The notes under the pieces were generated by a model that worked only from the letters and a program-made list of their open reading frames with translations, was not told where the DNA came from and searched no databases. The position numbers were made by a program, and so were the translations under genes. A stretch of 64,000 nucleotides of DNA from Desulfofustis limnaeus (GTDB lineage: Bacteria; Desulfobacterota; Desulfobulbia; Desulfobulbales; Desulfocapsaceae), in contig NZ_AP025516.1 of NCBI RefSeq assembly GCF_023169885.1, positions 868,001 through 932,000 on the forward strand, read 5' to 3'. Shown here one piece after another: positions 3,716 to 41,524 of this stretch. The first letter of the stretch is position 1. Each line of letters begins with the position of its first letter.

Positions 3716-3867
3716 GAACCTTTAGGGGGGCATGAAAAATTCGAAATTTCGTTCAAGATCGAGGCGCGCAAGATCATTTTATCGCAGGCATATACATGAT
3801 ATTCCGAGAATAAAATGTGATTGCGCAACGATGAGATTGGGCGAAATGGCAATTTTTCACGGTTCCC
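3716..3867 (+). repeat. MITE-like repeat, copy 1
   Basis: This 152-base element matches the reverse complement of 41374-41524 at about 88% identity with a single one-base gap. Both copies begin GAACC.TTAGGGGG and end GGTTCCC, so the tips form an inverted repeat (GAACC/GGTTC), extended inward by TGAAAAATT and ATTTCG on both ends. It can be read as a 55-codon peptide from 3732, but the other copy has a frameshifting gap, so it is not conserved as coding. It ends 49 bases before the start of the amidohydrolase gene and may supply its promoter. No transposase is linked. Confidence 0.85.
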
Positions 3868-3916
3868 TTTATTCGGTGGTAAGGGGCGGTATCTGATTTT
3901 ACGGATGGGAAGACCC

Positions 3917-20192: not shown

Positions 20193-20237
20193 ATGGGGCC
20201 GTCCCTCATTGAAGAAGAGCGGTGAGGTCGTCCTCAC
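20193..20237 (-). promoter_or_regulatory. Guanidine-II (mini-ykkC) riboswitch
   Basis: Reading the minus strand, hairpin 1 (20237-20222) is GTGAGG-ACGA-CCTCAC, a perfect six-pair stem with an ACGA loop. After 12 bases, hairpin 2 (20209-20193) is ATG-A-GGG-ACGG-CCC-CAT, six pairs with one bulged A and an ACGG loop. Two hairpins with ACGR tetraloops are the defining mini-ykkC architecture, and the downstream gene is the expected SMR exporter. The second hairpin ends 20 bases before the start codon, close enough to control access to the ribosome site. Confidence 0.88.
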
Positions 20238-20524
20238 GTCTTTGCGTAGGCCCGGAACAGTGGCCTGGCGTAGAGGGGGCAACCGTGTAAGCAAACCTTG
20301 GCACGGTCGCGGTAACCGGATCACAAATACGAGCCGAAGGCAAGGGCCATCTCGCAATGATTCGCCCGAAAGGCATCCCGGGGCGTCATGCGATATGATC
20401 GATACTTTGAACGTACGTCTTCTTCTGGGGCGCCGCGGGTAGGTCCGAGGACTCTAGAAAAGCCGTTGCAGACCAGGGGCGGGAACCCTTGCCAGGTCAG
20501 TACGATCGGGTTTTGTCTTTTTTG
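20238..20524 (-). other. Leader and promoter region of gdx
   Basis: These 287 bases lie between a small hypothetical gene and the riboswitch. They should hold the gdx promoter, but no hexamer pair stands out. An imperfect hairpin (GACC...GGTC) with a nearby T-rich stretch lies around 20473-20520. No gene is visible. Confidence 0.35.
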
Positions 20525-25356: not shown

Positions 25357-25965
25357 TCAGTTGACCAGCGTGAAGGTCATGTAATGCCATTTGGCGTAGG
25401 CGCCGTGGTCGTCGCCACACGGGTAGACGTCGTCTCCCCAGAAGCCGATGTTGTCGCCGGTGTTGAGCGAGTGGGTGCCACAGTCGATGGTGGCGCTACG
25501 GTCGGGGCATACAGAGCGCCAATCGTCGTGGGGACAGTCACAATGGAGTGAACTGGAGAGCGAGTACTCGCCCTCCTTGATGGTCTGACCGTTGATGGAA
25601 ACCCGGTAGGGTGATCTTCCGTCGTATTCCGTCTGGACCTTGATGGATATCCGGTATCTGCCGGACGGTCCGGGAAAACTGGCCGAGCAGGAGCCGCTGC
25701 CCGAATAGGGCTTGAGGCCGAGGGCGCCATCCCGATCAGTCCAGTTGCCGCTACAGGAAAAATCATCGAAGGCGTCAAGGGTGACTTTCCCGGAAGCAGT
25801 TTTACTGGAGGTGGTCGTATCTGTGGTCTGCGTTGTTGGGGCGGTCGTGGTTGCCGCCACCTCTCCGCTGCCGCCGGTCGAACTGCTGTCGTCACTGCCG
25901 CCGTCGCAAGATGTTAAAACGAGACCGACTGCCAGTAACGCCATGAAAAAGTAGGTGGTTCTCAT
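25357..25965 (-). CDS. Cys-rich lipoprotein of unknown family, paralog 1
   Basis: A 202-residue lipoprotein: signal MRTTYFFMALLAVGLVLTSC with lipobox LTSC, then a Ser/Thr-rich linker (residues about 20-60), then a globular domain of about 140 residues. The domain reads FSCSGNWTDRDGALGLKP, GSGSCSASFPG, SPYRVSINGQTIKEGEY, HCDCPHDDWRSVCPD, GFWGDDVYPCGDDHG and ends MTFTLVN. It shares roughly 70% identity, by eye, with the next gene, including paired cysteines. The fold looks like a beta-sandwich with Ca- or carbohydrate-binding character, but I do not recognise it. Located on the outer or inner membrane surface. Confidence 0.75.
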   Translation of the reverse strand: MRTTYFFMALLAVGLVLTSCDGGSDDSSSTGGSGEVAATTTAPTTQTTDTTTSSKTASGKVTLDAFDDFSCSGNWTDRDGALGLKPYSGSGSCSASFPGPSGRYRISIKVQTEYDGRSPYRVSINGQTIKEGEYSLSSSLHCDCPHDDWRSVCPDRSATIDCGTHSLNTGDNIGFWGDDVYPCGDDHGAYAKWHYMTFTLVN

Positions 25966-26136: not shown

Positions 26137-26772
26137 TCAGTTCACCAGCGTAAAGGTGATGCCGTGCCATTTGGCATAGGAACCGTGATCGCCGCAGGGA
26201 TAGACATCATCACCCCAGAATTCGACCGTGTCCCCGGGGGCGAGGGTGTGGGTGCCGCCGTCGATGGTAACGTTTTTGTCGGGGCAGATCGATCGCCAAT
26301 CATCTTTGGGACAGTCGCAGAATAGTGAACTGGAGAGCGGGTATTCACCTTGCTTGATTACCTGGCCATTGATCGAAATGGAGTAGGGTGATTGTCCATC
26401 AAATTCGGTCTGAATTTTTGCGTGGATGCGGTAGGTCCCTGCTTTTCCCGGAAAGACGGCCGAACACGAACCACTTCCCGAAAATGGTTTCAGGCCGAGG
26501 GCTCCGTCTCGATCGGCCCAGTTGCCGGAACAGGAAAAATCCTTAAAAGCATCGAGGTAAATCTTTGTGCCGGCAGAACTTCCCTGGTCAAGAGTCGCTT
26601 CGGAGGTTGTCGCTCCAGCAGCAATTTCGCCACTGCCGCTGGTGGCTGACCCCTCGTCGTCATCGTCAAAGTAGTCTTCAATCGTGTCACAGGCCGAGAC
26701 AAGGAAACAAAGAGTCAAGCACAACAGCAGGGATTTTTTCGGCAGCAGGGAATTTTGTGCTGAGGAGGGCAT
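26137..26772 (-). CDS. Cys-rich lipoprotein of unknown family, paralog 2
   Basis: A 211-residue paralog of the preceding lipoprotein. The signal peptide ends in LVSAC (lipobox), followed by an acidic stretch EDYFDDDDEG and a short Ser/Gly/Thr linker, then the same domain (FSCSGNWADRDGALGLKP, GSCSAVFPG, YSISINGQVIKQGEY, FCDCPKDDWRSICPD, FWGDDVYPCGD). The two genes lie head to tail, 171 bases apart, and are a recent tandem duplication that diverged mainly in signal and linker. I chose the ATG at 26772; an in-frame GTG at 26811 is possible, and neither has a clear ribosome site. Confidence 0.7.
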   Translation of the reverse strand: MPSSAQNSLLPKKSLLLCLTLCFLVSACDTIEDYFDDDDEGSATSGSGEIAAGATTSEATLDQGSSAGTKIYLDAFKDFSCSGNWADRDGALGLKPFSGSGSCSAVFPGKAGTYRIHAKIQTEFDGQSPYSISINGQVIKQGEYPLSSSLFCDCPKDDWRSICPDKNVTIDGGTHTLAPGDTVEFWGDDVYPCGDHGSYAKWHGITFTLVN

Positions 26773-41336: not shown

Positions 41337-41373
41337 ACGCCGGTGTTGCTCCGTATGGTCCGCCGTCTCTAAT

Positions 41374-41524
41374 GGGAACCTTGAAAAATTGTCAGTTCGT
41401 CCAATCTCATCGTTGCGTAATTACATTTTATCCTCGGAATATCATATACATGCCTGCGGAAAATCCTCTTGCGCACCTTGATCCTGAACGAAATTTCGAA
41501 TTTTTCATGGCCCCCTAATGGTTC
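41374..41524 (-). repeat. MITE-like repeat, copy 2 (inverted)
   Basis: Reverse-complement partner of 3716-3867, about 88% identical over 151 bases with one gap. It lies between two convergent genes, recQ and the FAD/Fe-S dehydrogenase, so it does not serve as a promoter here. The tips GAACC/GGTTC are again inverted. The copies face each other across about 37.5 kb, so recombination would invert the segment. Confidence 0.85.

Follow-up and report, generated by a model that had tools for sequence, protein, structure and literature searches.

The window analysed here (64,000 nucleotides, positions 868001-932000 of the Desulfofustis limnaeus genome, a single contig of 4,232,141 bases) carries two inverted copies of a short non-coding repeat. 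An earlier note, made from the letters alone, had placed this pair at 3716-3867 and 41374-41524. BLAST recovered it as a single inverted match of 152 bp (190 bits, E 4e-51) with 88.2% identity and one gap, a similarity far above chance; the pair thus stood, while its exact ends did not. Alignment with 30 further genomic copies fixed the limits at 3725-3867 for copy A (143 bp, + strand; model match at genome positions 871724-871867) and at 41374-41515 for copy B (142 bp, − strand; model match at 909374-909516). The GAACC/GGTTC tips that had been proposed lie outside the element; as they are absent from the other copies, they represent flanks matching by chance. The ends are inverted, as claimed, the true ones being GGG..CTTGAAAAATT, with element tips GGG...CCC.

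Terminal inverted repeats (TIRs) of copy A occupy 3725-3741 (GGGGGGCATGAAAAATT, + strand) and 3851-3867 (GGGAACCGTGAAAAATT on the − strand); both were delimited by the copy alignment and by the match to ends of an IS5-family element described below. The hairpin core, the part conserved across TIR classes in the phylum alignment and in core comparisons, lies between them at approximately 3746-3846 (+), and its apical part, ATCGCAGGCATATACATGATATTCCGAGAAT at 3781-3811 (+), is a conserved segment of the phylum alignment. Target-site duplications, which the note had suggested looking for, were found on both sides of both copies and are 4 bp long: TTTA at 3721-3724 and 3868-3871 around copy A (seen in the sequence and in repeat statistics), TAAT at 41370-41373 and 41516-41519 around copy B (seen in the sequence). 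The gene context had been described correctly: copy A is situated 49 bp upstream of the ATG of the FGase gene, and copy B sits between convergent ORFs. Imperfect TIRs, absence of a transposase and a MITE-like character were all borne out. Two unrelated features of the window should be mentioned, a match to the guanidine-II (mini-ykkC) riboswitch at 20194-20239 on the − strand (36.2 bits; Rfam gathering score 32) and a direct repeat of ∼424 bp at 25357-25780 and 26137-26557 (73% identity), probably a duplicated gene segment.

Far from there being no other copies anywhere, an outcome for which the note had allowed, the covariance model found 97 unique loci in this genome, all spanning model positions 1-144; at least 40 copies were among the BLAST matches listed. 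The 37.5-kb frame seen around the pair is therefore a coincidence, copies A and B being merely two neighbours among ∼97 scattered copies. Searches with TIR patterns gave 70 + 65 matches in the genome versus 4 + 3 in the reversed control; unpaired TIRs, considered as possible ends of a longer element, were nearly all degenerate full copies or halves. The element is 142-144 bp long and non-coding, showing a constraint on pairing instead of a reading frame, with imperfect TIRs of ∼17-20 bp. Among 71 copies with sufficient flanks, 70 were intergenic according to a simple ORF caller (35 in tandem, 18 in divergent and 14 in convergent settings), and orientation with respect to neighbouring genes was unbiased (34/33 on the 5′ side, 38/29 on the 3′ side). 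Perfect 5-bp flanking repeats were present in 17 of 56 own-genome copies versus 1.2 in shuffled controls; per-base agreement of the flanks peaked when the repeat was taken as 4 bp long and shifted outward by one base, and G occupied position +5 in 35 of the 56.

The ends of the element led to a partner insertion sequence (IS). In a relative, G005, a PF01609 transposase is flanked by GGGAGCCTTGAATAATT and GGGTTCCTTGAAAAATC; these ends are 1302 bp apart and have TATA duplications. Homologues of this transposase, 66% identical, occur at 19 places in the window's genome (17 of them score identically), and the G005 homologue (L112) belongs to the IS5 family (NCBIfam NF033581, 276 bits at a cut-off of 140). 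The IS5-family element of this genome is 1334 bp long and exists in at least 17 near-identical copies, with a transposase gene at genome positions 340805-341818; it has TIRs GGGTTCCTTGAAAAATA / GGGCACCTTGAATAATGCCATTTT, duplications TTTA, TTAA, ATGA and ATTA, and a G following the duplication in 7 of 8 copies, the same preference as that of the hairpin element. As the two agree in TIR, in 4-bp duplication and in target preference within the same genome, the IS5-family transposase is the likely mobiliser of the hairpin element, which it would move in trans. In a comparison made for a possible derivation of the element's interior from this IS, the TIRs alone gave a clear match; the right ends are weakly similar over ∼45 bp, with a score of 20 versus a shuffled maximum of 22. 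A homologue of this transposase was not found, at the threshold used, in the element-rich genomes G009, G024 and G034. We also considered a Tn3 origin, given the GGGG ends and the apparent 5-bp repeat, and rejected it: the duplication of the partner IS is 4 bp long, and the Tn3 transposase domain (PF01526) was absent from the own genome and from element-rich genomes and present in only 4 of 58 relatives. At one locus (L174:290-1770, genome ∼3100688-3102169) an IS5-family copy begins ∼4 bp away from the end of a hairpin element, seemingly within or beside that element's target duplication.

Folding of several copies, also proposed in the note, showed that the whole element forms a single long hairpin on either RNA strand; the fold surpassed those of 200 shuffled versions, with z-scores of -5.8 and -4.3 for copy A and down to -11.3 in relatives. 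The consensus over 70 elements has 50 pairs; 94.3% of cells are paired versus 77.2% in shuffled and at most 50.4% in slid controls. Double compensatory changes were seen across lineages in 37 of the 50 pairs, with a covariation score of 0.483 (0.182 shuffled, 0.13 slid). Helix 1 corresponds to the TIR and would be symmetrical in any case; in helices 2-5, 21 of 33 pairs covary. Many of the phylum copies were picked by the structure-aware model, which favours paired sequences; still, 16 of 42 pairs covary in a mostly BLAST-picked alignment. Several unpaired bases of the core are invariant or nearly so (A40, G42, A64, A86, A89 and A108), and subterminal TTTTYGYYCAA segments form inverted repeats on both sides. 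Rfam gave no match at the gathering threshold, and a relaxed E-value gave chance matches only.

Matches to the element were found by BLAST in 37 of 58 close relatives and by the covariance model in 89 of 395 genomes of the phylum, Desulfobacterota (62 of 246 genera). An exact 23-base piece of the element occurred, among named genomes, in Desulfofustis glycolicus only; viral contigs, plasmids and phages had no element matches. Length is nearly fixed: of 89 aligned elements, 82 measure 142-144 bp and 88 measure 140-144 bp. Some genomes are crowded with copies, with 405 ends of one type (T4, below) in a 2.7-Mb genome and 338 of another (T3) in a 2.8-Mb genome, versus 0-2 in controls.

Across this range, a hairpin core of ∼100 nt occurs with TIRs of at least six classes: T1, GGGTACCTTGAAAAATT, with a 4-bp duplication; T2, GAGCCTCTTGCAAAATG; T3, GTGTCCATCCAGAAATG, with a 6-bp duplication; T4, GAGGCTGTCCGAGAATAG (also GAGGCTGTCCGAGAAT), with a preference for CTAG targets; T5, GAGACCTTTGAAAAACG; and T6, GTGTCTGAACGAAAACT. 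Duplications hold across lineages, with perfect 4-bp repeats in 22 of 34 T1 elements (2.7 shuffled) and perfect 6-bp repeats in 9 of 21 T3 elements (0.76 shuffled). With classes and cores assigned by consensus sequences made by eye, mean TIR identity was 0.80-1.00 within classes and 0.30-0.62 between them (chance 0.24), and core identity between classes was 0.65-0.80; for T2 and T4 the means were 0.78 in the core and 0.30 in the TIR. The sharpest case is given by elements L249 (T3, genome G243) and L275 (T5, genome G399), whose cores are 94% and TIRs 46% identical; in the sequences as read, the match starts and stops ∼20 bases inside each tip. A tree of cores only, built from 99 columns and with many forks not resolved, has seven changes of class label against a minimum of five; its starred branches require T3 and T1 each to have arisen at least twice, T3 being joined to two separate core lineages. 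T3 and T4 elements occur together in genome G125, and two classes are present in each of G089 and G401.

A second, different IS carries the T2 TIR in G036, of a related genus only (L116 and L126, the latter with a CTTA duplication); its transposase resembles the IS1182 and IS5 models, scoring below their cut-offs. For T3, T4, T5 and T6 no partner IS was found, the PF01609 loci of G243 and G125 being without T3-T6 TIRs; spaced TIR pairs in these two genomes, considered as T3 and T4 insertion sequences, turned out to be separate elements in the cases fetched. We saw in addition mini hairpins of ∼43-84 bp having the same TIRs and no core or a partial one (L090:1690-1735, L341:1-60, L343:142-199, L342:147-230); those in L090 (43 bp) and L341 (57 bp) consist of TIRs only.

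We consider it likely, with a probability of roughly 0.7, that the element is a non-autonomous mobile hairpin with a conserved core, the ends of which were replaced to suit host transposases. The missing partners of T3-T6 and the element-rich genomes with no T1 transposase homologue at the threshold used count against this. We infer that the core acts in cis, as a module which propagation requires regardless of the transposase employed. A bolder version, which we regard as possible and somewhat short of probable, is that the core is a mobility module independent of the transposase, a structured hairpin that would render any pair of suitable TIRs mobile, and that its lineage, one of parasitic DNA, hopped between unrelated transposases across the phylum, trading only the outer ∼20 bp. 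As to mechanism, an IS5-family transposase would act in trans on the TIRs, with the core folding its strand into a hairpin or cruciform. The folded core could bring together for cutting both TIRs of a stiff 142-bp element, whose length would be comparable to the stiffness length of DNA; such a juxtaposition would explain both the fixed length and the independence from any one transposase. In the long term the element would persist by replacement of its outer ∼20 bp to fit the transposase of the host. One could speculate that mini hairpins with the same ends were donors in the exchange of TIRs.

Among other explanations the best survivor, albeit an unlikely one, is that the core is a structured RNA serving the host (terminator, mRNA stabiliser, riboswitch or sRNA), dispersed by insertion sequences and kept for the host's benefit. 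The strong covariation and the near-invariant unpaired bases would agree with it; so would the better folding of the sense strand than of its complement in 6 of 6 elements (e.g. -53.3 versus -40.8 and -64.3 versus -37.9) and the significant excess of sense-strand G-U over A-C in conserved pairs, 85:25 overall. This excess, however, is gone in the BLAST-picked subset (19:15) and may therefore reflect search bias; we dropped it as a test for the RNA strand. The unbiased orientation to neighbouring genes and the lack of an Rfam match argue against a host RNA, as does the way in which copies of this genome decay. Substitution rates in 72 of them are near-even (0.122 in the TIR, 0.111 at paired and 0.093 at unpaired core positions); among single changes in the 24 most diverged, 169 disrupt a pair and 49 leave it intact, and pair-keeping double changes show no excess (14 versus 13.6 shuffled). 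Inserted copies thus decay freely, and pairing is kept between lineages. On the simplest reading, the fold matters for propagation rather than for the host, and selection appears to work on the making of new copies, not on host use. Where the note had put selection on structure or old transposition as a choice, the data favour the two together, in a mobile element with a fold conserved between lineages and not in individual inserted copies.

Next in probability, and also unlikely, is the explanation that no strand folds at all, the arms being double-stranded sites of a symmetric protein with shifting specificity. The subterminal TTTTYGYYCAA inverted repeats on both sides would suit this reading; however, helices 3 and 4 vary and yet stay paired between copies in one genome, although all of these would meet one and the same host protein (columns 58/101 of A1, for example, hold C-G or A-T, and stems differ within G005). 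Still less probable is the appearance of compensatory changes with no selection, one palindrome arm being copied from the other by template switching in replication or repair. A long imperfect palindrome is the usual substrate for this process, and the antisense strand, too, matches the covariance model; arm copying should nevertheless erase the bulges, mismatches and U-G pairs that persist phylum-wide (columns 30/121 and 31/120), and the invariant unpaired bases and the missing excess of compensated doubles in diverged own copies speak against it as well. Least probable is an ordinary MITE with a functionless core, the TIRs of which drifted along with one evolving IS in the absence of any exchange of ends: the T1, T2 and T5 ends, which have parts of CTTTGAAAAA in common, may be related, the sorting of ends and core relied on consensus sequences made by eye, and recent spread could account for a conserved interior, but this leaves aside the L249/L275 contrast, duplications of 4 versus 6 bp, co-occurrence of two classes in three genomes, the different transposases to which T1 and T2 ends belong, and the presence of one TIR class on two core lineages.

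The preferred reading, a mobile hairpin with exchangeable ends, can be set against known systems. The usual picture of a MITE is that of a dead-end descendant of one insertion sequence, and REP/BIME elements are palindromes of 20-40 bp moved by a Y1 (RAYT) transposase; our element differs from the latter in size, TIRs and duplications. By anatomy it is a MITE: short, non-coding and multi-copy, with TIRs, target duplications and, for T1, a partner IS. Prokaryotic MITEs share with it these features as well as the intergenic location, the ability to form a hairpin and a partner IS with similar ends (PMC10969869). As a rule, each is recorded from a single species or lineage and linked to one IS (PMC10969869), unlike the element described here, whose interior is conserved phylum-wide and whose TIRs change at a length fixed near 142 bp. 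In the papers found, no MITE is credited with this combination of conserved core, interchangeable ends and phylum-wide spread. The Chunjie MITE of Geobacter uraniireducens (PMC10969869), compared by description only, resembles it in being multi-copy and intergenic and in having both TIRs and direct repeats, and its host, too, is a sulfur/metal-reducing bacterium; it differs in length, 178-235 bp, and is known from one strain. The bcr1 repeat of the Bacillus cereus group (PMC6542083) is about as abundant (39 copies on average, up to 130), is likewise interspersed and has mobile features; it is limited to one species group and goes with a TTTAT motif, and no end swap is mentioned in what was consulted of its description. 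Tn3-derived TIMEs (PMC4133298) have G-rich tips and are likewise short and non-autonomous, but their duplications are 5 bp rather than 4 bp, and TIR and partner are other ones. A literature search found no description of the element for Desulfobacterota.

Keeping the core while the ends change is the reverse of the usual evolution of miniature elements. If a core can survive phylum-wide by swapping ends, MITEs would be seen to form lineages that last for long without depending on one particular transposase, and it could be tested why full-length hairpins are so common among bacterial MITEs. The contrast of pairing strongly kept between lineages with the free decay of inserted copies tells selection for mobility apart from host benefit. 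As an apparently unregistered phylum-wide repeat, the element is also useful to know in annotation and assembly. In genome G021 many contigs end at an element copy (C113, C94, C34, C6, C7 and C1), hence near-identical copies seem to break assemblies. Some elements have extra sequence of ∼25-110 bp at or near the hairpin apex (L340:267-519, L206:217-383, L113:98-284).
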